The notes under the pieces were generated by a model, which was not told the origin of the DNA, made no database searches, and worked only from the letters and a program-made list of their open reading frames with translations. From Halosimplex halophilum (GTDB lineage: Archaea > Halobacteriota > Halobacteria > Halobacteriales > Haloarculaceae), in the NCBI RefSeq assembly GCF_004698125.1, contig NZ_ML214297.1, positions 1,958,891 to 2,022,890 of the forward strand: DNA of 64,000 nucleotides. Direction: 5' to 3'. Position 1 is the first letter of the stretch. Every line of letters begins with the position of its first letter. Position numbers and translations under genes: made by a program. This document shows positions 12,429-23,349 of this stretch, one piece after another.

Positions 12429-12962
12429 TCAGTCGGTGAGTGCCCACAGGACGAACCAGCGTCGGTTCCAGAGCTGATAGCTCGTCGAGACGGCGACGGC
12501 GAGCAGCATGACCGTGATCAGGAGTATCGGGTCGAGCCGCGCGAACACCGGAAACTCCAGTTCGACGCTCAGCAGGACGATCAGCCCGATCGTCGCCAGC
12601 GCGCGGTAGAACGACGCCCACGTGATCCCGTACGGCGAGACGACCTCCATGTAGATGTCGACCTCGCGAGCGAACTCGTCGAGGGTGACCGTCTTCCGGT
12701 CCCTGTCGTAGACGACGATGCCCTCCCGGTCCAGTTTCGGCAGGTGCGTCTGGTGGAGGGAGTTGTACACGCTCTCGCGGAGGTCCGTCGGCGGCGGCGA
12801 CTCGCCCGACTCCCGCTCCGCGATGGAGACCGACAGCTCGCGCAGCGAGACCGACCCGATGGTCCGCTGGAGGTGCGTGAGTACCGCCCGTCGCCGCTCG
12901 TTCCTGAGAACGTCGTGGATCTGTTCCTCGGCTAACGACCGCGTGTTTCGTAACGTACCCAT
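12429..12962 (-). CDS. Second DUF7344-type winged-helix membrane regulator
   Basis: A 177-residue paralogue of the preceding protein, with the same signature segments (DVLRNERRRAVLTHLQ and RESVYNSLHQTHLPKLDREG) and two C-terminal transmembrane helices. The start at 12962 is chosen because an AT-rich box (ATAATTAAGC on the minus strand, about 12995-13004) lies about 35 bases upstream; a longer open frame to 13241 has low-complexity content and no sign of being coding. It reads toward the first regulator with 67 bases between the stops. It is divergent from the SipW-protein genes, a common arrangement for a regulator and its target. Confidence 0.8.
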   Translation of the reverse strand: MGTLRNTRSLAEEQIHDVLRNERRRAVLTHLQRTIGSVSLRELSVSIAERESGESPPPTDLRESVYNSLHQTHLPKLDREGIVVYDRDRKTVTLDEFAREVDIYMEVVSPYGITWASFYRALATIGLIVLLSVELEFPVFARLDPILLITVMLLAVAVSTSYQLWNRRWFVLWALTD

Positions 12963-13430
12963 ACCCTTCCCGGAGGTGGCCACGCCCCCCACCCGCTTAA
13001 TTATCGACCCGCTTTGCCGAATTTCTGCCCGACAGGCTCCGAAAGGCCCGATCGTTCGACTCGGCTTATCGGGCGGTTTACGACCGAACCGGTCGTTTCG
13101 GACGGCCGAACGGTCGGTTAAACCCCGTCGACGACCGCCGGACCGATCCCGAAACCGTCCGCAGACAGTCGAGCTCCGGGGACGCCGCCGCCCGACCCCG
13201 CCGTTCACGGGACCGACCTGCCCGTTCGACCCCGCCCGCACCGATTGAACCCGTGGTTAAGCCGCCAAACGACTCCATTGGTGGGACAATCGCCGGTTGT
13301 TCCCGACAAACGACGGGTTCGAGCCCGTCGAACGGGACGATTGATAAAAAATCCGGCAATTACCTATGGGGCGTCCCGCTGTGGGTCGTAGCAAGCCCGT
13401 GCCGTCCCGCGGAACGGGTGGAGACAAATC
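12963..13430. promoter_or_regulatory. 468-base intergenic region upstream of the SipW-protein cluster
   Basis: No gene is supported. It holds the minus-strand promoter of the DUF7344 gene (about 12995-13004). A hairpin with arms GACGGG and CCCGTC around TTCGAG lies at 13312-13329, directly followed by an A-rich TATA-like box GATAAAAA at 13343-13350. A leader of roughly 55 bases then ends with a GGTGGAG ribosome-binding site at about 13418-13424 before the ATG at 13431. A leadered, SD-bearing message is unusual in this window. Confidence 0.55.
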
Positions 13431-14327
13431 ATGTCAGACAAGGAATTCGGACTGTCCCGCCGGCAGATGCTCGCCGGGCTCGGCACCATCGGTGTCGCGT
13501 CCGCGGGCGCCGGGCTCGGGACGACGGCGCTGTTCAGCGACGAGGAATCGTTCACCGGGAACTCGATCACCGCCGGGACGCTCGACCTGAGCGTGACCGC
13601 GTCGGTGGAGGCCGCAAACGAGTACTGGGCCGAGCAGGTCGACCTGGCCGAGCTGGAGGCGACCGCCGACGGCGAGGCGGTCACCGGCATCCAGGTCTCG
13701 GACGTCAAGCCCGGCGACTGGGGCGTCGTCTGCTTCGAGTTCGAGGTCGGCGACAACCCCGGCTACGTCCGCACGCGGGCAGAGGGTCTCACGACGAACG
13801 AGAACGGGTACACCGAGCCCGAACCCACCGACAGCGAGGCCGAAAACGACCCCGGCGATGAGGAGGGGGCCGGCGAGTTGCAGGACTTCATGCTCGCCGA
13901 GGTCTACCAGAGCTCTGTCGACGCCGACAGCGACGACCCTCGTGACCACGTGGAAAACCTCGATCCCGTCACCTCCGAGGGATCGACGCTGCAGGAGACC
14001 TACGACACGTTCTCCGACGGCGTGATCATGCGCGACGGCGACGGCGAGCCGCTCGTGGTCGGCGCTGACCCCGAGGAGACGCCCGACGGCACTCCGGAGG
14101 GGGCCGGCTCGGCGGAGTGGTGTCTCCTGCTGTACGTCCCCGAGGACGTGGGCAACATCATCCAGAGCGACACGCTGTCGTTCGACCTCGTGTTCGAGGC
14201 CGAGCAGGTCCGGAACAACGACGTGCCGTTCGACGGCGACAGCGCGGTCAGCGAGACCGCGACGCCCGAGCCCACGGCGACGCCGGACCCGACCTCGACC
14301 CCCGAAGGGACCGCCGCGCCCGAGTGA
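13431..14327 (+). CDS. SipW-type signal peptide protein (TasA/camelysin-like) 1
   Basis: A 298-residue exported protein. The N-terminus has a twin-arginine-like LSRRQMLAGLG, a hydrophobic core and the junction GLGTTALFSDEESF, which is the SipW-dependent signal style of TasA/camelysin proteins. The mature part has the strand blocks SDVKPGDWGVVCFEFEVGD (about 100-118) and NPGYVRTRAEG, and closes with VQSDTLSFDL-type and EAEQVRNND strands. The C-terminus is a Thr/Pro-rich tail of PTATPDPTSTPE type, probably surface-exposed and possibly glycosylated. In bacteria such proteins form biofilm matrix fibres after cleavage by SipW; a dedicated signal peptidase lies downstream in this cluster at 19573. 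It is the first gene of the cluster, with a good SD. Confidence 0.85.
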   Translation: MSDKEFGLSRRQMLAGLGTIGVASAGAGLGTTALFSDEESFTGNSITAGTLDLSVTASVEAANEYWAEQVDLAELEATADGEAVTGIQVSDVKPGDWGVVCFEFEVGDNPGYVRTRAEGLTTNENGYTEPEPTDSEAENDPGDEEGAGELQDFMLAEVYQSSVDADSDDPRDHVENLDPVTSEGSTLQETYDTFSDGVIMRDGDGEPLVVGADPEETPDGTPEGAGSAEWCLLLYVPEDVGNIIQSDTLSFDLVFEAEQVRNNDVPFDGDSAVSETATPEPTATPDPTSTPEGTAAPE

Positions 14328-14451
14328 GCCTCGGGTAACCGTTCCCCCGACCCCACACACCCCCTGCGACTTCGGTCGCGCCCGCGGACGGCGCGACCGC
14401 TCCGGCGGCACGGCCGCCGGGACCCGCGCCGGGACTCGTCACCGCGACGAC

Positions 14452-14482
14452 GGCGGTTCGACTCCGCCGGCGGGCCTCGCCC
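14452..14482 (+). repeat. T-arm-like hairpin element, copy 1
   Basis: GGCGGTTCGACTCCGCC (14452-14468) folds into a 5-bp stem with a 7-base loop, the geometry of a tRNA T-arm. It is followed by GGCGGGCCTCGCCC, a second short hairpin. The element begins 51 bases before the ATG of SipW protein 2. Confidence 0.7.
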
Positions 14483-14502
14483 GATACACGGGTGTAGTAA
14501 CC

Positions 14503-15336
14503 ATGACCGGAGACAACGACTCGACGGACGGCGTCCGCTTCACGCGGCGCTCGCTGCTCGCCGGACTCGGCACCATCGGTGTCGCCGGCGCCGGCGCGGG
14601 CCTCGGGACGACGGCGCTGTTCAGCGACGAGGAATCGTTCGCGGACTCCCAGCTGAGCGCGGGCGCGCTGAACCTGCGCGTCACGGTGGACAACATCGCC
14701 CACAGCACCCCCGCCGTCCGGGACAACACCGAGGTCACGCCGAAGGACACGGCCGACGGCGAGGCGGTCACGATCGCGGTGTCCGACCTGAAGCCGGGCG
14801 ACTGGCTCCTCCTGGAGTGGAACCCGGAGGTGATCGCCAACCCGGGGTACGTGCGGGTCACCTCTGTCGACGAGGACTACTCGAACACCGAGGGCCTGAC
14901 CCCCGACTCCGAGACGGACACCGACGCGCCGGGCGACCTCGGCGACGCGCTCCTGTCGACGGTCTGGGCGTCGTACGAGGACCTCAGCGGCGGGCTCAGC
15001 CGGGATGACCTCGCCGGACTCGATACGACGACCGACAACGAGGACACCGGCCTCTCGGCCTGGGAGCTGCCGGACCGCGACGGCGTGACCGCCAGCGGCG
15101 CCCACTACACGACGATGAACGAGGCCCACGAGGTCTATCGGTCGGGCGTGGTGCTCCGGGACGGGAGCGGCGAGCCGCTGACGGTCGGGAGCAACGCCGA
15201 CGCCGCCTGGTTCTACCAGCTGCTCGAACTGCCGCTGCGCGTCGGCAACGACGTGCAGGGCGACGAGGTGACGTTCACCCTTCGGTTCGACGCCGAACAG
15301 ACCCGCAACAACGCGACGCCGTTCGACGGGGCGTGA
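14503..15336 (+). CDS. SipW-type signal peptide protein (TasA/camelysin-like) 2
   Basis: A 277-residue paralogue of protein 1. The signal region FTRRSLLAGLGTIG and the junction LFSDEESF are almost the same as in protein 1, followed by the typical post-cleavage strand LSAGALNLRVTVD. The core has SDLKPGDWLLLEW and NPGYVRVTSV, and the last strand pair (EVTFTLRFDAEQTRNN) ends the protein. There is no Thr/Pro tail, unlike protein 1. It is separated from its neighbours by 175 and 93 bases, and each gap carries a T-arm-like hairpin. It is likely a structural paralogue in the same surface assembly. Confidence 0.85.
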   Translation: MTGDNDSTDGVRFTRRSLLAGLGTIGVAGAGAGLGTTALFSDEESFADSQLSAGALNLRVTVDNIAHSTPAVRDNTEVTPKDTADGEAVTIAVSDLKPGDWLLLEWNPEVIANPGYVRVTSVDEDYSNTEGLTPDSETDTDAPGDLGDALLSTVWASYEDLSGGLSRDDLAGLDTTTDNEDTGLSAWELPDRDGVTASGAHYTTMNEAHEVYRSGVVLRDGSGEPLTVGSNADAAWFYQLLELPLRVGNDVQGDEVTFTLRFDAEQTRNNATPFDGA

Positions 15337-15383
15337 CCGCGGGATGACCGACGACGCCCACGCTGGCGCCCGCGAGACGCGGC

Positions 15384-15414
15384 GGCGGTTCGACTCCGCC
15401 GGTGGGCCTGCCCC
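15384..15414 (+). repeat. T-arm-like hairpin element, copy 2
   Basis: GGCGGTTCGACTCCGCC (15384-15400) followed by GGTGGGCCTGCCCC matches copy 1 across the stem-loop exactly. It begins 46 bases before the ATG of SipW protein 3. Confidence 0.7.
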
Positions 15415-15429
15415 TGACGGGGTGGTACG

Positions 15430-17484
15430 ATGACCGACGAACCGATGGAACTCTCACGGCGGAAACTGCTGGGCGGGCTCGGCGCGGTCGGGCTCGCGAG
15501 CGCCGGCGCCGGACTGGGTACGTCCGCGCTGTTCAGCGACGAGGAATCGTTCGAGAGCACTACGTTCGCGGCGGGCGAACTCGACCTCAAGGTCGACTGG
15601 GAGGAACACTACTCCTACCCGCAACGCTACGGGTTCGACGACCCCGCGGCCGACCTGGACGTGACCCGGGTCGAACCGGACGGCGACGGCTACGTCGGCC
15701 TCCCCGATCCCGAGAACCCCGCGGTCTGGGTCGCCGAGGGGGACCTCCCGGCGTACATGGCCAACACGTCGATCGAGTCGTTCCCCGACCCGAACGACGA
15801 CGGGGTCCAGGAGATGCAGGACGGCGAGTTCGCCTACTCCCCCTGCCGGGACGGCGCCGACCTCGACGAGCACTTTGACCCGGTCGGCGGGCTGCGGACG
15901 AACAACGCGGACACGCTGGTCGACGGCGAGGTCGAACCGCTGGTCAGCCTCGACGACATCAAACCGGGGGACTTCGGCGAACTCACGCTGAGTTTCCACC
16001 TCTGTGACAACCCCGGCTACGTCTGGCTGCGGGCCCGCGGCGTCTCCGAGTCCGAGAACGGCCTGACCGGACCGGAGGCGACCGTCGACGACAGCCCCGC
16101 CGACCCGGAACTGGCAGAGCAGATCCGGACCATCTGGTGGTACGACACCGACGGCAACAACGTCGTCGACGACTCGGTCGGGGCGGTCGACGTGATGATC
16201 GCGGTGGACACGTCGGGGTCACTCAATGGCGACGACGTGGGCGCGCTCGAGACCGCGGCAAACGACCTCGCAGCCGGTCTTGACGCGAACGCCGACGCCC
16301 GCGTGGGCGGCGTGTCCTTCGGTGACGACGTGAGCAACTTCACCGCGCTCACCGACGGACCGGTTTCCTTCTCCGGGCTCTCAGCCAACGGGAGCACCGC
16401 GATGCCCGCCGCGCTTGAGATCGCTGCGGCCGAACTGGACGCGAACGCGCGCTCGGGCGCCGAGACGTTCGTCGTGCTGTTCACCGACGGCGGCCCGAAC
16501 TACGGCAACGGGCCCTACGAGGTCGGCGGCTATCAAGTCGGGCCGTACAGCGGTGGCGACAGCGACAACGCCGTCGTCGAGGACGCGGAGCTCGACGAGA
16601 CGGCGGACATCGCCGACACCGTCCGGAACGATCACCGGATCCTCGCCGTCGGGATCAACGACGGCCGGGCGCCGTCGGGTCGCGACGGCGAGTCCGGCGT
16701 CCCGCTGCTCTCGACGTACCTCCGCGACGAGATCGCGGGGGGGCAGGGCGACTACTTCAGCAGCGACGACCCCGGCGCGGTGTCGGGCGTCCTGAGCGCG
16801 ATCACCGACGCGATCGCCATGGACGAGGAGGTGTTCCACCGCGGGACCCTCGCCGACGACCTGGCGGCGCTGTCCTCGGGTGCCGGGATCCCGCTGGACG
16901 CGGGACTCGAAACCGGCTTCGACGAGCTGTCGGACCCCGACGACAGCGCCGACCGCGAGTGCTTCCAGCCCGGCGTCAACCACTTTATCGGGTTCGGCTG
17001 GTGGCTCCCGGTCGACGCCGGCAACGAGGTCCAGAGCGACGCCGTGAGCTTCGACTTCGGCTTCTACACCGAGCAGTGCCGCGGCAACGACGGCGGCGGC
17101 ACGAGCACCGTCGACGACGGCGGCGACGGCGAGGAGGAAGAAGAGGAGGAGGCCGCGACCGTGACGGTGCAGGGCTTTCCCAGCGACGACGACCTCGGGG
17201 CGACCATCGAGACGGTCGACGTCGAGTTCCCCTTCGCCCTCTCGGGGGCGTCGGTCGACGACACCTCCTGGAGCGTCGGTCCCTCGGGTTCGGAGGTCGT
17301 CGCGGTCGACGGGACCACCGTCGAGCTCGACTACCCCGACAACTCGAACACGTACACGTCGGACACCTTCCTGGAGCTGACGGTGAGCGGTATCGCGGCG
17401 CCGTCGGGGACCTACGACGTGGACTTCGTCTTCGAGGACGACGACGACAGCGCGGTCGACTCGACGGACCAGGTGACGATATAG
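15430..17484 (+). CDS. SipW-type signal peptide protein 3 with inserted von Willebrand A domain
   Basis: A 684-residue exported protein. Residues 1-50 are the LSRRKLLGG / LFSDEESF signal region. Residues about 50-245 give the first part of the TasA-like fold (IKPGDFGELTLSFHLCDNPG, then IRTIWWYDTDGNN). A complete vWA domain is inserted at about 254-462, with an intact MIDAS: D260-T-S262-G-S264, T323 and D353. After it the TasA-like fold resumes (FHRGTLADDLAALSSG, then SDAVSFDFGFYTEQCRGND, about 465-555). An acidic linker of Asp/Gly/Glu and a beta-rich C-terminal domain of about 120 residues follow. vWA domains bind protein ligands through a metal, so this subunit may be an adhesin or tip protein of the assembly. 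A SD (GGGGTGG) precedes the ATG. Confidence 0.85.
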   Translation: MTDEPMELSRRKLLGGLGAVGLASAGAGLGTSALFSDEESFESTTFAAGELDLKVDWEEHYSYPQRYGFDDPAADLDVTRVEPDGDGYVGLPDPENPAVWVAEGDLPAYMANTSIESFPDPNDDGVQEMQDGEFAYSPCRDGADLDEHFDPVGGLRTNNADTLVDGEVEPLVSLDDIKPGDFGELTLSFHLCDNPGYVWLRARGVSESENGLTGPEATVDDSPADPELAEQIRTIWWYDTDGNNVVDDSVGAVDVMIAVDTSGSLNGDDVGALETAANDLAAGLDANADARVGGVSFGDDVSNFTALTDGPVSFSGLSANGSTAMPAALEIAAAELDANARSGAETFVVLFTDGGPNYGNGPYEVGGYQVGPYSGGDSDNAVVEDAELDETADIADTVRNDHRILAVGINDGRAPSGRDGESGVPLLSTYLRDEIAGGQGDYFSSDDPGAVSGVLSAITDAIAMDEEVFHRGTLADDLAALSSGAGIPLDAGLETGFDELSDPDDSADRECFQPGVNHFIGFGWWLPVDAGNEVQSDAVSFDFGFYTEQCRGNDGGGTSTVDDGGDGEEEEEEEAATVTVQGFPSDDDLGATIETVDVEFPFALSGASVDDTSWSVGPSGSEVVAVDGTTVELDYPDNSNTYTSDTFLELTVSGIAAPSGTYDVDFVFEDDDDSAVDSTDQVTI

Positions 17485-17518
17485 CGGCGCGACGCGGCGA
17501 CTCGCCCACTCGGAGCAC

Positions 17519-17549
17519 GGCGGTTCGACTCCGCCGGTGGGCCTGCACC
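17519..17549 (+). repeat. T-arm-like hairpin element, copy 3
   Basis: GGCGGTTCGACTCCGCC (17519-17535) followed by GGTGGGCCTGCACC. The stem-loop is identical to the other two copies and the second half nearly so. An ATG occurs 52 bases after its start, at 17571, matching the spacing seen at copies 1 and 2. Confidence 0.7.
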
Positions 17550-17570
17550 GGGAGACCGGTACGCACAAGC

Positions 17571-17690
17571 ATGATCCGGGATCACTCGCACCGTTCGGGA
17601 GACGGAGAGCCGTCGGCCGCGTTCGGCCGTCGAGACCGCCGCGCGCGGCCGTTGGACCCCCCACGCCGGGCGAGCGGCGGGCGGAGGTGA
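17571..17690 (+). CDS. Possible small Arg-rich ORF, coupled to the next gene
   Basis: A 39-codon frame starting with ATG at the same distance from the T-arm-like hairpin as the starts of SipW proteins 2 and 3. Its stop (TGA 17688-17690) overlaps the GTG at 17687 as GTGA. The product would be MIRDHSHRSGDGEPS followed by an Arg/Pro-rich tail, with no hydrophobic signal. It may be a leader peptide, a remnant of a decayed SipW gene, or chance. The support is position and coupling only. Confidence 0.3.
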   Translation: MIRDHSHRSGDGEPSAAFGRRDRRARPLDPPRRASGGRR

Positions 17691-18478
17691 CGACCGTGGC
17701 GTGCGTCCAGTCCGGGACGGGGTACGTGTTCGTCGTCCCGCGGGTCGTCTGTCCCCGCGGGCCGGGACCGTCGGTGCTGCCGCTGGCCGCGCTGGTCGCC
17801 GAGGAGACGGCGATCGGCCGGCTCGCCGACGACTGGCGGGGAAGCGCCCTGCTGCCGCGGACCGCGGTCGGGCCCGATGCCTCGCCGCCCGCGGAGCCGT
17901 CGGTGTCGCTCGGCCCCGACGCCGGGGCCCCGGACGCACCGGGGGCCCCGAACGCGCCGGACGCGCTGGACGCCCCGGACGCAGCCGACGCCCCGGAGGC
18001 GACGGACGCCACGGACGCGCCGGAGACAGGCGGGGACCGGGGGCTGGCCGACCAGCCTCCCGGGATGGCGGCCGATGCCGGCGAGCGCGACTCGTTCGTC
18101 CTCGGCGTCCACGCCGCGTCGGTCGGCGACGGGGACCCGACTTCGCCTGCGTCGCTCGTCGGCGTCCGCGTCCTGGCGCCCGGGGAGTACCGGGCGGTGC
18201 CGGTCCCCGTCTGGGAGGCGAACCCCTTCCCGATCGCCGCGCCGAGCGCGGTCGGCGAGCGCCCGCGGACGGACTGGACGGACACCGGGCTCGCGCCCGA
18301 GCCGGGGGCCGGTCGACGCGTCGAGGTCACCGCGACGCTGTGGGCGGACCTGGGCGGCGACGCCGAGCGGTCCCGACCGCTGTACGACGGGCTCGGATGG
18401 GCCGTGACCGACTCGCGAACCGTGACGTTCGGCGGCGCCGGCGACGCCGACTCGGACGGCTTCGAGGTCGCGAGGTGA
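17687..18478 (+). CDS. Hypothetical protein of the SipW cluster
   Basis: A 263-residue protein I do not recognise. It starts VTTVACVQSGTGYVFVVPRV and has a central low-complexity stretch of Ala/Asp/Pro triplets (DAPDA type, about residues 81-115). The C-terminal half is beta-rich and ends TDSRTVTFGGAGDADSDGFEV. There is no clear signal peptide, so it may be cytoplasmic or cell-surface associated by another route. The GTG at 17687 overlaps the upstream stop as GTGA, but a GTG at 17696 has a better SD (GGAGGTGA at 17683-17690) and could be the true start. The 3' end overlaps the next small frame as GTGA (18475-18478). Confidence 0.55.
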   Translation: MTTVACVQSGTGYVFVVPRVVCPRGPGPSVLPLAALVAEETAIGRLADDWRGSALLPRTAVGPDASPPAEPSVSLGPDAGAPDAPGAPNAPDALDAPDAADAPEATDATDAPETGGDRGLADQPPGMAADAGERDSFVLGVHAASVGDGDPTSPASLVGVRVLAPGEYRAVPVPVWEANPFPIAAPSAVGERPRTDWTDTGLAPEPGAGRRVEVTATLWADLGGDAERSRPLYDGLGWAVTDSRTVTFGGAGDADSDGFEVAR

Positions 18479-18630
18479 CCGCCGTGTCTCGCCAGGCCAC
18501 GACTCCCGGATCGCGCGCGGTCGACGCCGGTGTCGCGGGGACCGGCCGGTCCGACCCCGTAGTCGCGGTCACCGGCCGGTCCAGGCGACGCCGACCGGGC
18601 GGCGCCGAGCGGCGGGGTGGTCGACCGTGA
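18475..18630 (+). CDS. Possible small ORF bridging two genes of the SipW cluster
   Basis: A 51-codon frame from a GTG overlapping the previous stop (GTGA) to a TGA overlapping the next start (GTGA at 18627). The product (VTAVSRQATTPGSRAVDAG and an Arg-rich end) matches nothing I know. The exact tiling at both ends is what draws attention; third-position GC is high, but so is the background, so coding is unproven. Confidence 0.3.
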   Translation: MTAVSRQATTPGSRAVDAGVAGTGRSDPVVAVTGRSRRRRPGGAERRGGRP

Positions 18631-19580
18631 GCGACGACGACGGGTCGCTGTCCCGGCGGGCCGTCCTCGCGGGGCTCACCTCGGCCGGCGCGGTCGCGGC
18701 GACCGGCGCCGGCGTCGGGACGAGGGCGGTGTTCCGCGACGACGAGCGGGTCGAGGGGTCGGCCGACAGCGGCGTCGTCGACCTCCGCGCGTCGTGGGCG
18801 AGCGGCGGGGTCGACGCCTCCTTCGGGACGGTCGGCGCGGTCGGCGACGGCGGGAGCGACGCGGTCGCCCTGTCGCTGGCGCCCGCGAGCAACCCGGCGT
18901 ACGTCTGGGTCCGGACGCGGTGTCGACGGTGTTCCGAGATCGAGCGCAAACTCCGGGTCGCGCTCTCGCTGGTCGCCGACGGGACCGAGACGCGGCTGTT
19001 CAGCGGTCGGCTCGGCGACGCCCGGGCGAGCCTGGGCGACGGCGTTCGGCTCGACGGCTCGATCGCGCCGGGGGACGACTGGCGGCTGACCGTCGAGTGG
19101 GAGCTCCGCGAGCCGCTGACGGCCGACGCCGCGGTCTCGATCGACCTGGAGTTCTACGCGGTCCAGACGCGCAACGTCGCGGACCCCGGGACCTTCGGCC
19201 CGGGGTGGGCCTGTCCGGCCGGGTGCGGCGACCGCCCGCCGGGGACGGCCGACATCAGCTGGGTCGGGTTCTGCGCGGCCTCGGGCGAGCGGCTCCGCCC
19301 GGCGGACCTGCGCTTCGCGGTCGACGGGTCGGTCCTCGAACTGACCGACGCGCCGGCCGCCCTCCGGACGGTCCTGCTCAAGTACGGGACGAGTCTGGAC
19401 GTCTTCGAGCGGGCCTCGCCGGGGCGGTTCGTCGCGGGGACCGGCGAGACGTACGACCAGCGCGGCCCCGGCTTCCCCGGGTCCGGCCGCTCGAATCCGA
19501 CGCCGTGTCCCGGCCGCTGCGGACTGAAGTACGACGTCGACGGCGGCGAGTTCGAATCAAACGGGTGTGCCAATGACTGA
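18627..19580 (+). CDS. SipW-type signal peptide protein 4, cysteine-rich
   Basis: A 317-residue protein with a divergent SipW-style start: LSRRAVLAGLTSAG, then VGTRAVFRDDERV and SGVVDLRASW. The first 185 residues follow the TasA-like strand order, with NPAYVWVRTRC and ISIDLEFYAVQTRN-type blocks. The C-terminal 130 residues are a distinct domain with clustered cysteines (CPAGCGD, GFCAAS, CPGRCGLKYD, NGCAND), plus CRRC in the first domain. That many cysteines is unusual for haloarchaea and suggests disulfides or metal sites outside the cell. It starts with GTG in a GTGA overlap. Its end overlaps the signal peptidase start by eight bases, so the two are coupled. Confidence 0.75.
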   Translation: MSDDDGSLSRRAVLAGLTSAGAVAATGAGVGTRAVFRDDERVEGSADSGVVDLRASWASGGVDASFGTVGAVGDGGSDAVALSLAPASNPAYVWVRTRCRRCSEIERKLRVALSLVADGTETRLFSGRLGDARASLGDGVRLDGSIAPGDDWRLTVEWELREPLTADAAVSIDLEFYAVQTRNVADPGTFGPGWACPAGCGDRPPGTADISWVGFCAASGERLRPADLRFAVDGSVLELTDAPAALRTVLLKYGTSLDVFERASPGRFVAGTGETYDQRGPGFPGSGRSNPTPCPGRCGLKYDVDGGEFESNGCAND

Positions 19581-20916
19581 CAATTTCCGAACCAGAGTGC
19601 AGGCGCGGGTCGCATCGTACGACAGGTGGAGCTTCCTCAGGGCGGCGCTGGTGGCGCTGCTCGTCGCGGCGGTCGTCCCGTTCGTGGTCTTCGCGGTCCC
19701 GCAGGTCGTGGGCGCCGAGGCCAGCTACGTCGTCCTGAGCGGGAGCATGGAGCCGGCGATCAGCCCCGGCGACGTGGTGATCGTCGACGACGTATCGCCG
19801 GCAGCGATCTCCGCTGGCGACGTGATCACGTTCGGCGGCGGCTCGACCGAGCCGCCGACGACCCACAGGGTGATCGGGGTCGAACGGGAGGCCGGCGAGC
19901 TCGTCTTCGAGACGAAAGGCGACAACAACCAGGCGCCCGACCCCGAGCGGGTGTCGGCCGGCGAGCTCACCGGGCGGGTGATGGAGCCGTCGCTGCCGGG
20001 GCTCGGCCCGACGCTGTTCGCGGTCCCCTACCTCGGGTTCGTCGTCCGCTTCGCCAACACGACCCACGGCTTCGCCGCGCTGGTGGTCGCGCCGCTGTCG
20101 CTGCTCGTCCTCTCGGAGGCGTGGAACGCGTTCGTCCGCCGGCGCGACGCCGCGGACGACGCCGGCGGCGACGGTCCCGAGAACGGGGCGGACGCGACGC
20201 CTGCCGGCGTGTCGACGGACGGGTCCACCGGTGGGGAGTCCGGCCCGGTCGTGACCCTCTCGCCGCGGGCCGGTGGACTGCTCGCCGTCGTGCTGGCGGC
20301 GCTGGCGGTCGTCGCCGGGCGCTACGCTCTCCAGGCGCGCCGCCCGCTCGCGGCGGTGGTCGCCGTCGGGTCCGGCGTCGGCGCGCTCCTGCTGGTGGCG
20401 TTTCTCGCCGGTGCCACGCCCGAGGAGGCGGCCGACGAAGGATCCGGACCCGGCGGCGGCCCGGACCGGAACACGGTCCCCGACGGCGGTTCGGACGCGG
20501 CGTCGGACGGCGGCGAGCGTGTCGTCGCCGGGACCGTCGTCTCGGACCGCTCGCGCGCCAGGCGGGTCGAAGTCCGCGAGATCGCCGCGTTCCGGGAGCT
20601 CGCGGCGGACTCGGACGCGTGGGTCGTCCACGACGAGGTCGCCGGGGAGTACGCGCTGCTCGAAGACGGCGTGACGTTCGTCGCGACCGATCCGGCGGAC
20701 CCGGCGACCGCGGCGACCGGGCCGGCGGACCGAGACGAGGGGCCGCCGAGCGCCGAAGCGGGCGACCCGCTCGCCGGGTCGGACGATGTGACCGCGGGCG
20801 GCGCTGGCGGGGACGACGCGGTCGCGGGGCGGGCCGACGGCGGGGTCGGCACCGGCGACGCCGCCGACGGGCCGCGAAGCCGCGACGGTCGGGAGTGCGA
20901 CGATGGGCCGGAGTGA
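19573..20916 (+). CDS. Signal peptidase I, S26B (SipW/ER-type), with long C-terminal extension
   Basis: A 447-residue membrane peptidase. After a transmembrane helix (about 22-46) comes the catalytic domain. YVVLSGSMEP carries the nucleophile Ser58, and TTHRVIGV carries His98 in place of the Lys of bacterial P-type enzymes. KGDNN has the conserved Asp117. The Ser-His arrangement is the S26B type shared by archaea, the ER signal peptidase and Bacillus SipW. A second helix follows near 155-180, then two more (about 235-257 and 260-280), then an acidic low-complexity tail. Being coupled to a SipW-type substrate gene, it is probably dedicated to this cluster. An alternative GTG start lies six bases upstream. 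Confidence 0.9.
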   Translation: MTDNFRTRVQARVASYDRWSFLRAALVALLVAAVVPFVVFAVPQVVGAEASYVVLSGSMEPAISPGDVVIVDDVSPAAISAGDVITFGGGSTEPPTTHRVIGVEREAGELVFETKGDNNQAPDPERVSAGELTGRVMEPSLPGLGPTLFAVPYLGFVVRFANTTHGFAALVVAPLSLLVLSEAWNAFVRRRDAADDAGGDGPENGADATPAGVSTDGSTGGESGPVVTLSPRAGGLLAVVLAALAVVAGRYALQARRPLAAVVAVGSGVGALLLVAFLAGATPEEAADEGSGPGGGPDRNTVPDGGSDAASDGGERVVAGTVVSDRSRARRVEVREIAAFRELAADSDAWVVHDEVAGEYALLEDGVTFVATDPADPATAATGPADRDEGPPSAEAGDPLAGSDDVTAGGAGGDDAVAGRADGGVGTGDAADGPRSRDGRECDDGPE

Positions 20917-21292
20917 CCGCCCCACGGAGGCGAAACTCGCGGCGCTCGCGCTGGCGGCGGCGCTGCTGTTCGCCGCGGCGACCGGCGGGCTCACTCACGG
21001 CGTCCTGATCGACCGGGAGTCGGTGAGCGCGACGCTGGCCGGCAACGCCGGCGCCGGGAACGCCCCAGTCCCCGGACCGCTGGGAGCGGGGAACACCCCC
21101 GATGGCGTCGAGAACGGGCCGAGCGGCCCCGGAGACGGACCGGACGGTGCCGGGAACGCTCCGGGGAGCGGGGGTCCCCCGCTCCTCGTGGGCGGGTCCC
21201 CGGTCGAAGCCCCGGTAGTGCGCCCGAACCCCGTCGAGCGACGGGGTCGCGCTCGCGGCGGGCCGAGCGGTGCCAGGGGTGGCCCGAAGTGA
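20903..21292 (+). CDS. Small secreted Gly/Pro/Asn-rich protein with SipW-like signal
   Basis: A 129-residue protein whose first 30 residues form a hydrophobic signal (LAALALAAALLFAAATG), followed by VLIDRESVSATLAGN. That resembles the LFSDEESF junction and following strand of the SipW proteins. The remainder is low-complexity (GNAPVPGPLGAGNTP and similar) with no fold I can name, and ends in an Arg/Gly-rich tail. It overlaps the signal peptidase gene by 14 bases and the next gene by four. It could be a linker, anchor or minor component of the assembly. Confidence 0.6.
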   Translation: MGRSDRPTEAKLAALALAAALLFAAATGGLTHGVLIDRESVSATLAGNAGAGNAPVPGPLGAGNTPDGVENGPSGPGDGPDGAGNAPGSGGPPLLVGGSPVEAPVVRPNPVERRGRARGGPSGARGGPK

Positions 21293-21477
21293 CGGAGCGA
21301 CGGCCTCGGCGGTCGGTCGCGACGGTCGTGCCGGGTGTCCGGACGAACACGCCGAAACGGAACATCATCGTCCTCCTGACGTACCTGCTGCTGCTGGGCA
21401 TCGCGCTGTCGGGGCTGACGGTCGCGGCCGATCTGCTGCTGGCGGGGACCTTCGCCGCGACGCGAACGGTAATATGA
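21289..21477 (+). CDS. Small single-span membrane protein ending the SipW cluster
   Basis: A 62-residue protein: an Arg-rich N-terminal 24 residues, then a hydrophobic span (IIVLLTYLLLLGIALSGL, about 26-43) and a second short hydrophobic part. The GTG start overlaps the previous stop as GTGA. The positive N-terminus predicts a cytoplasmic N-terminus. It may help the signal peptidase or anchor the assembly; nothing in the sequence settles this. Confidence 0.55.
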   Translation: MTERRPRRSVATVVPGVRTNTPKRNIIVLLTYLLLLGIALSGLTVAADLLLAGTFAATRTVI

Positions 21478-21678
21478 GTCGGGAACCTGTACGTAAGCCA
21501 ACGGTTCAACCAGTGTTCGACCGACCCGGCCGCGAACCGGCCGCCGCGACGCCGGAACCGGTCACAGACGGCAGGTTCGAGGGGCTTCCTGAGGGGTACC
21601 GTCGGCCGGCCGCGGGCCCGACACCGCCCGTCACGGGTCGTCCTCGGGGACCGCTCCCGTCTCCCGGGGGAGGTGTCG

Positions 21679-23349
21679 ATGACCGGTGAGACCCCCGACG
21701 GCACCGATACCGACGGGGCCGACGCCGGCGACGGCCTCTCCTCACGGGCGACGGTGCTGGTCGTCGACGACGACGAACTGTGGGGCCGGACCGCGGCCCG
21801 CCTCCTCGAACGCCAGCGCGAACGGCTCTCCGTCACGACGGCGACGACGCTCTCGGAGGCGGAGGCGGCCTTCGAACGCCTCGATCCCGACTGCGTCGTC
21901 TGCGACTACCGGCTCGACGACGCGACCGGCTTCGACCTCCTCTCGACCGTGCGCCGGGCCGACTCGGACCGGCCGTTCGTCCTCGTGACCGGCGAGGGAG
22001 ACGAGGGGGTCGCCAGCGAGGCCATCAGGCGGGGTGCGACGGATTACGTCCGCAAGGGCCGCCACAGCGACGACCCGGGGCTGCTGGCCGAGCGAGTGAC
22101 CTCCGCGGTCGAGGCGTACCGGACCCGACGGGCGCTGACCCGCGAGCGCCGGAGCAAGGAGGCGATGCTCGACATCGTGACCACGACCGCCTCGCGAGAG
22201 ACGCTCTGCCAGGCCTTCTGCGACCTCCTCGTCGACGAACACGGCTACGCCGGCGCGTGGATCGGGATCGAGGAGGGGGTCGACGGGCTCGACCCCTGGG
22301 CGGCGGTCGACTGCGGCGGCTACCTCGACCGCGTCGGCTCCACCCAGCGGGCCGGTGACGGTGAGTCCCCGGCCCTGATCGCGCGGAACCGGGGCGAGGC
22401 CTGCGTCGTCGACCGGATCGAATCGGACGACTCCGACGCGACCGCTCCGGCGGAGGGCGACCGCGCCGCCGGGACCGACGACCCCGACTGGCGGTCGGCG
22501 GCGCTGGCGGCCGGCTTCCGGAGCGCCGCGGCCGTCCCCCTGGGCGAGGACGGCGGGCGCGTCGGCGTCCTGACGGTCTTCGCGGCCCAGCCGGGGGCGT
22601 TCGACGACCGGGAGTGTCGGTTGCTGTCGGACTACGCGGCGACTATCGCCTACGCGCTGCGGACGGCGAGCTGGAAGCGGTCGCTGGTGTCTTCGGTGCC
22701 GGTGTCCGTCGAGTTCCGGTTCGCCGGCGACGAGGTGCCGCTGGTCGCGTTCGGCCGCCGACTCCCCGACGGGGCGTCGGTGTCGCTGGCCTCGACGGCG
22801 GTCAAGAGCGACCGGTCGCTGCTGTATCTCCTCCGGGTGTCGGGCGTTCCCGGGTCGGCGATCCCGGACGCTGCGTCGGTACCGGGCGTCGAGTCGGTGC
22901 GCGTCGACGACGACGTGACGCCCGTCCGGGTCGAACTCGTCGCCGACGGCCTGACGCCGGAACGCCTGCTGGCGAACCGCGGAGCGAAGGTCACGGGGAC
23001 CGCCGTCGAGAACGACGCGGTGACGGTCTCGGTGTCGTACCCCAGAGAGGGGGACATCCAGGCGCTCTCCCGGGCGCTCCGCGACGAGTTCTCCCGGGTG
23101 GACGTCGGGCGCATCAGGACCGACGAGTCCGGCGTGGAGCCGGTCGTCGACGAGGGACTCGCGGCGGACCTCACCGACAAGCAGCGGCAGGCGCTGGAGA
23201 TCGCGTACCACAAGGGGTACTTCGAACGGCCCCGCGACCACAACGCGACCGAGGTCGCCGACGCGCTCGGGATCAACCGGGTCACGTTCACCCAGCACCT
23301 CCGGACCGCCGAACGGAAGGTCTTCGCGCGACTGTTCGACTCCGACTGA
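21679..23349 (+). CDS. Response regulator with GAF and bacterio-opsin-activator HTH domains
   Basis: A 556-residue protein. Residues about 18-135 are a receiver domain (VLVVDDDELW, phosphoacceptor D76 in VVCDYRLDD, VTGEGDEGV, YVRKGRH). A GAF domain (about 165-330) and a bacterio-opsin-activator-type linker follow. The C-terminal HTH contains LTDKQRQALEIAYHKGYFER and RVTFTQHLRTAERKVF. It would couple phosphorylation to transcription. The ATG at 21679 is preferred to an in-frame GTG at 21673 because GGAGGTG at 21668-21674 fits as its SD. It sits between the SipW cluster and a histidine kinase, its likely partner. Confidence 0.9.
   Translation: MTGETPDGTDTDGADAGDGLSSRATVLVVDDDELWGRTAARLLERQRERLSVTTATTLSEAEAAFERLDPDCVVCDYRLDDATGFDLLSTVRRADSDRPFVLVTGEGDEGVASEAIRRGATDYVRKGRHSDDPGLLAERVTSAVEAYRTRRALTRERRSKEAMLDIVTTTASRETLCQAFCDLLVDEHGYAGAWIGIEEGVDGLDPWAAVDCGGYLDRVGSTQRAGDGESPALIARNRGEACVVDRIESDDSDATAPAEGDRAAGTDDPDWRSAALAAGFRSAAAVPLGEDGGRVGVLTVFAAQPGAFDDRECRLLSDYAATIAYALRTASWKRSLVSSVPVSVEFRFAGDEVPLVAFGRRLPDGASVSLASTAVKSDRSLLYLLRVSGVPGSAIPDAASVPGVESVRVDDDVTPVRVELVADGLTPERLLANRGAKVTGTAVENDAVTVSVSYPREGDIQALSRALRDEFSRVDVGRIRTDESGVEPVVDEGLAADLTDKQRQALEIAYHKGYFERPRDHNATEVADALGINRVTFTQHLRTAERKVFARLFDSD

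Follow-up and report, generated by a model that had tools for sequence, protein, structure and literature searches.

We analysed a 64,000-nucleotide (nt) window of the Halosimplex halophilum genome (contig NZ_ML214297.1), in which a gene cluster occupies positions 13431-21477, counted within the window. The closest named relative of this genome is H. pelagicum R2, with 93% identity between the SipW proteins. A first-pass annotation had described the cluster as a set of SipW-signal proteins with their own S26B signal peptidase, and both profile matches and co-occurrence across related genomes confirm this description (Table 1 and below). The protein cluster belongs to a known type of TasA-like fibre operon. 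That annotation overlooked three structured RNA elements in the intergenic gaps, which we judge to be more unusual than the proteins themselves. We compared them across a family sample of 146 genomes, a class sample of 391 genomes and a phylum-wide sample.

Table 1. Genes and RNA features of the fibre cluster and its flanks, with positions in the window.
Feature	Position	Strand	Evidence and remarks
DUF7344 winged-helix membrane protein, divergent from operon	12429..12971	-	PF24035, E 3.2e-28
TasA-like subunit 1	13431..14327	+	Twin-arginine translocation (Tat) RR motif and SipW junction TALFSDEESF; PF12389, TIGR04088; AlphaFold2 all-beta model
tRNA-like element 1	14421..14477	+	T-arm hairpin GGCGG-TTCGACT-CCGCC and acceptor-like stem; R1 39.7 bits, E 1.4e-5
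Hairpin 3' of element 1, before ATG at 14503	14476..14496	+	
TasA-like subunit 2	14503..15336	+	PF12389 23.2 bits; 42% identical to subunit 1
tRNA-like element 2	15355..15409	+	R1 44.5 bits, E 1e-6
Hairpin 3' of element 2, before ATG at 15430	15408..15425	+	CTGCCCC-TGAC-GGGGTGG
TasA-like protein with inserted vWA and extra C-terminal beta domain, putative tip adhesin	15430..17484	+	PF13519; fold matches
tRNA-like element 3	17503..17544	+	Minihelix of 7-bp GCCCACT/GGTGGGC and 5-bp T arm; R1 52.3 bits, E 1.6e-8
Acidic 263-aa open reading frame	17687..18478	+	Homologue only in Halosimplex pelagicum among loci
SipW-type protein directly 5' of peptidase gene	18627..19580	+	Homologues at same place in many clusters
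S26B signal peptidase, SipW-type	19573..20916 (GTG start 19567 or ATG 19573)	+	TIGR02228; motifs GSMEP, TTHR
Small secreted protein	20903..21292	+	One hydrophobic N-terminal segment
Small membrane protein	21289..21477	+	One transmembrane segment; GTG start overlapping preceding stop
Response regulator	21673-23349		Receiver-GAF-BAT-HTH_10

The gaps before genes 14503 and 15430 and before open reading frame (ORF) 17687 have GGCGGTTCGACTCCGCC in common. This shared core reads as a tRNA T arm with a stem of 5 base pairs (bp) and the loop TTCGACT. The 3' strand of the arm continues into GGTGGGC, which in element 3 pairs with an upstream GCCCACT. The resulting architecture is an acceptor-like stem that stacks on a T arm and leaves a short bulge on the 5' side. 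Element 1 has a core identical to those of elements 2 and 3 and the weakest outer stem of the three. The elements have no match in Rfam, with nothing near threshold, and ARAGORN detected no full tRNA gene in the cluster. At E≤0.01 the covariance model R1, described below, matched the whole genome of the window solely at these three places.

Since a MAFFT alignment of all copies misplaced the outer stem, the seed alignment (A3) was limited to 17 copies with short bulges. Double changes occurred in 7 of its 13 pairs, and its covariation score of 0.202 compares with 0.066±0.015 after shuffling (0 of 500 shuffles as high) and with at most 0.042 for slid pairings. Elements between the fibre genes of relatives keep paired stems of changed sequence, such as CCCTG/CAGGG (L046), GACTCAC/GTGAGTC (L054) and CGGGGG/CCCCCG (L053). 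R1 was built from A3 and run at E≤0.01 on 75 sequences, the window together with 74 named SipW loci, some of them from seed genomes and most (for example those of Halorubrum and Halobellus) not. The search returned 102 matches, including one site twice from the overlapping loci L186 and L200, and 102 of 102 lay on the strand of the peptidase gene. When these matches were aligned (A5), 11 of the 13 pairs carried double changes, with 109 double-change cells versus 32.5±4.7; the score was 0.280 versus 0.127±0.007 for shuffled alignments, and slid controls reached at most 0.085.

The T-loop reads TTCGANY in all 102 matches, and 91 have a GG in the 5' bulge, which, speculatively, might supply a D-loop-like contact. 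The core of the outer stem contains 40 G-U pairs versus 1 A-C pair. Therefore it is the sense-strand RNA that is conserved, rather than the DNA or the other strand, and the substitution pattern indicates that the element acts as RNA.

We then asked where in fibre operons the element stands. By a strict regular expression, 78 of the 102 matches directly precede an ORF with a twin-arginine motif and a SipW junction, and further cases were found by eye. The element lies before 90 of 119 later cluster genes versus at most 11 of 53 first genes (p=1.4e-11); the second count is an upper bound, since the expression also flagged a hairpin of another register at 13313 in the window. Thus fibre genes other than the first of such an operon mostly follow a tRNA-like element in many haloarchaea, and this bias fits an inter-cistron element better than a promoter-proximal switch. 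The stretch from the element to the start codon folds as a hairpin in 56 of 56 cases tested (mean z -2.7); the hairpin usually begins no more than a few bases from the element, and the median spacing between element and start codon is 22 nt. The hairpin flagged in the window (GACGGGTTCGAGCCCGTC, 13313-13331) is located upstream of gene 1, just 5' of the A+T-rich GATTGATAAAAAATCC. It is T-loop-like, but was not counted as an element because of its different register.

Matches to R1 were found in 47 of the 146 family genomes (E≤0.01) and in 194 of the 391 class genomes (E≤0.001), both counts including matches in 5S rRNA leaders. All 26 positive genomes of the phylum-wide sample belong to the order of the window genome. 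We read 93 match loci, which were the top scores and chosen lower ones rather than a random draw. Of these, 58 precede SipW/TasA-type genes, as assigned by an automatic pattern that perhaps takes in some of Taf type, 11 lie ahead of other subunits of Tat or Taf type, and 10 fit no class, several of them secreted as judged by eye. The matches in L148 and L155 precede seemingly non-secreted genes and are exceptions to the association with fibres and 5S rRNA.

The Taf-type clusters L245-L247, with TafA/E/F homologues and, in L246, a DUF5305 protein, also carry the element; in the examples read it stands before later subunit genes and not before the first. Clusters of this kind, named after the Taf fimbriae (TafA/C/E/F, NCBIfam NF052520-NF052523), share with the window RR-type secreted subunits, a signal peptidase of their own and the RNA element. 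The window proteins themselves, however, remain far under the Taf cut-offs, the best being TafA with 15.1 bits versus 190. An open-access literature search for TafA yielded nothing relevant.

The remaining 14 of the 93 loci link the element to rRNA processing. Although its seed held no 5S locus, R1 also matches a short element immediately 5' of 5S rRNA at these loci in other haloarchaea, and both 5S genes of the window genome have such a leader element (19.6 and 17.4 bits). These two leader elements (L240, 277-321; L241, 261-306) contain an extra bulge hairpin, as do the fibre-operon copies of L047, L049 and L050. In L240 the match ends at base 321 and 5S rRNA begins at 322. The t-element before 5S rRNA of Haloferax volcanii is a tRNase Z substrate, and the cut forms the 5' end of 5S rRNA (PMC4326828, PMC7714728, PMC3296008). 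Besides being described as 5S rRNA processing signals, haloarchaeal tRNA-like elements have served in engineered constructs, where the t-element was used with RNase P and tRNase Z (PMC4326828, PMC4946936, PMC3296008, PMC7714728). The H. volcanii t-element and the fibre elements have in common an acceptor-like stem, a short 5' GG bulge, a T arm with a TTCGANT loop and a position directly 5' of the product. While the 5S t-element matures one rRNA, the fibre element separates protein cistrons, often several times per operon, and has a hairpin and then a start codon on its 3' side. With an acceptor-like stem and a T arm closed by a TTCGANY loop, the intergenic elements are a variant of the t-element placed in mRNA. 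A covarying element before many fibre-subunit genes would be a natural mRNA counterpart of the 5S processing signal.

By analogy with the 5S leader, the best-supported mechanism, and one we consider probable, is that the mRNA of the fibre operon is cut at its tRNA mimics by tRNase Z. The operon would encode a TasA-like surface fibre whose subunits are exported by Tat and processed by SipW, the vWA subunit being its likely tip or adhesin. In the polycistronic transcript each minihelix would fold with its T arm stacked on the acceptor-like stem, and tRNase Z, possibly with RNase P on the 5' side, would cut the element as it does the similar one in the 5S leader. A cut equivalent to that at 5S rRNA would fall where the hairpin begins. 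Each downstream subunit would then obtain its own mRNA, opened by a short hairpin some 20 nt ahead of the start codon, and a tRNA-like structure would close the upstream mRNA. Separate decay and translation of the subunit mRNAs could set the subunit ratios. For this operon we infer that the message is cut, which enzyme cuts it, how this affects expression and that a fibre forms.

The broader proposal is of a general haloarchaeal signal, by which tRNase Z would split the messages of SipW/TasA- and Taf-type fimbriae, leave hairpin-capped 5' ends and tie stoichiometry to tRNA processing. We consider the case for it evenly balanced. It would offer a testable answer to the question of how archaea derive unequal subunit amounts from one operon, and the element would be a sequence marker for locating surface-fibre operons.

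Several observations weigh against cleavage at these elements. The outer stem of element 1 is poor, and element 3 precedes an ORF without assigned function, 142 nt ahead of its start. No element was detected before 29 of the 119 later genes. Haloferax SipW loci gave no convincing R1 match; therefore the element is not required by the fibre system everywhere. Since best pairing decided which outer stems entered the seed, and A5 was fitted to R1, the alignments, and with them the pairing percentage, are biased in favour of the structure. Less dependent on the choice of stem are the slid controls and the changes in the inner stem, where one pair is A-U for G-C in 24 copies. Finally, some of the elements predicted in a 2012 study of Haloferax tRNA-like elements (Biochimie) reportedly stayed uncleaved in vitro. 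The fibre-operon elements may have been described earlier, for example among those H. volcanii elements, as our literature search covered open-access publications only.

If the element stayed uncut, it could be part of a structured 5' region that governs downstream translation or mRNA stability, with the tRNA-like fold as binding site for a protein or the ribosome. The fixed distance of about 22 nt to the start codons and the second hairpin in between would suit such a region, as would the Haloferax elements that reportedly stayed uncleaved in vitro. However, the same architecture is a processing site before 5S rRNA, and the first genes of the clusters, which mostly lack the element, are not predicted to do so for a translational device. 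We therefore regard this explanation as unlikely. A riboswitch that senses a ligand or tRNA and switches the expression of each subunit is very improbable. The conserved loop and the common GG of the bulge do suggest a tertiary fold, but everything invariant in the element belongs to a tRNA T arm, and there are several copies per operon, mostly away from the promoter-proximal gene.

Recurrence between paralogous genes also resembles cassette boundaries, as expected of a DNA-level site that serves recombination of subunit genes or their exchange as cassettes and was duplicated along with them. The excess of G-U over A-C in the outer-stem core shows instead that selection acts on the sense-strand RNA. 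Moreover, copies within one genome differ by compensatory changes (ACCCAC/GTGGGT and GACTCAC/GTGAGTC in L054), and no recombinase was found among the window genes examined; we give a DNA-level site hardly any weight. Least probable of all is an ordinary TasA-like operon with functionless inherited repeats. Flanks could have been copied along with the paralogous subunit genes (42% identity), but conservation and covariation extend over many genera and several families, and Taf-type clusters carry the element as well. We thus favour cleavage by tRNase Z over these explanations.

The proteins of the cluster were assessed by profiles and structure prediction. The first-pass annotation had counted four proteins with SipW-type signals, three of them sharing LFSDEESF. 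The shared motif is indeed identical in three proteins. At its cut-off of 19 bits, TIGR04088 recognized the signals of subunit 1 (26.9) and the vWA protein (25.7) but not that of subunit 2 (15.1); the junction of the protein encoded at 18627-19580 (RR...VFRDDE) was seen by eye. The signals join a twin-arginine motif to a SipW-type junction (SRRQMLAGLG...GTTALFSDEESF). The M73/camelysin profile PF12389 (cut-off 22.5 bits) was passed by subunit 1 (22.6 bits) and subunit 2 (23.2 bits), while the vWA protein scored 19.9 bits. An AlphaFold2 model of subunit 1, computed with 25 homologues (predicted local distance difference test, pLDDT, 67), is all-beta. Its 46 N-terminal residues are unplaced, which is compatible with donor-strand exchange and no test of it. 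Among PDB structures the model matches the TasA fibre 8aur best (probability 1.00, one paralogue tested); with E 1.6e-3 and a TM score of 0.44, the fold match supports a relation to TasA but does not prove it on its own.

The vWA subunit was likewise predicted correctly (PF13519, E 1.7e-8). The best fold matches of its 684-aa model (pLDDT 76) are the tip adhesins SpaC, PitA, RrgA and Mfa5, which also have a vWA domain set in a beta-rich subunit; in the window this domain sits within a TasA-type protein with a SipW signal. The model suggests that the subunit is likely a pilus-tip adhesin or tip. The 18627-19580 protein had no family match in the profile search and might have an anchor or TapA-like role.

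TasA fibres assemble by donor-strand exchange, and SipW takes off the signal peptide (PMC9674648). By analogy, both steps may occur in the window system. The tapA-sipW-tasA operon of Bacillus subtilis, whose fibre is of the donor-strand type (PMC9674648), likewise pairs a SipW-type peptidase with TasA-fold substrates, whereas the window has more paralogues, a vWA subunit, Tat signals and intergenic RNA elements. The bundling pili (AbpA) of Pyrobaculum calidifontis, cited in PMC9674648 and PMC9905601, are an archaeal TasA-related fibre. Their host is a hyperthermophile outside the haloarchaea, and the likeness is drawn from this literature.

The predicted Ser-His peptidase matches the archaeal signal peptidase family TIGR02228 with 100 bits (cut-off 51.9), whereas it scores 88.5 bits with the Bacillus SipW equivalog NF046067 (cut-off 190). 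The Ser of its GSM and the His of its THR motif are invariant in the peptidase alignment (A4), and its nearest solved relatives are SEC11A/C. Counting TIGR04088 matches as SipW-type signals and hits with E<1e-19 as strong SipW homologues, we found that the two mark an identical set of 42 among the 146 family genomes (Fisher p~1e-37). In these 146 genomes, 127 of 131 signals lay no more than 13 kb from a peptidase, and a signal was found near 57 of the 58 peptidases. These data support the view that haloarchaea possess fibre systems of the TasA-like kind, each served by a signal peptidase of its own.

Among the flanking genes, two membrane-bound winged-helix regulators had been proposed, and two DUF7344 proteins with transmembrane segments were found. 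The divergent one is likely a local regulator, since homologues are kept upstream of SipW on the opposite strand in 50 loci. Its conserved part starts near MGTLRNTRS (~12971), and the open frame extends to 13241. The proposed two-component pair did not hold: a receiver-type response regulator is present, no kinase was detected among the neighbouring ORFs tested, and the close homologue of the regulator occurred only in H. pelagicum among 80 loci, so it was rejected as part of the system. The earlier idea of a signal-controlled surface fibre thus stands in part, with the TasA-like fold and co-conservation in its favour and the two-component pair removed; the operon would be expected to produce a fibre. 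Of the two results that the annotation had named as refuting it, lack of any TasA-like fold prediction and lack of co-conservation with the peptidase in relatives, neither was obtained. The annotated small secreted and small membrane proteins are the products of 20903-21292 and 21289-21477, with hydrophobic and transmembrane segments, respectively. The acidic protein encoded at 17687-18478, absent from the first-pass annotation, had no family match. A short ORF (MIRDHSHRSGDGEPSAAFGRRDRRARPLD...) at 17571-17690 starts about 27 nt 3' of element 3, and two further Halosimplex genomes (L041, L042) also have its start ATGATCCGGGATCACTC after the matching element. The gap before 18627 contains an imperfect 23-nt inverted repeat at 18528-18593 (CGGTGTCGCGGGGACCGGCCGGT / ACCGGCCGGTCCAGGCGACGCCG), perhaps a degenerate element or another hairpin.

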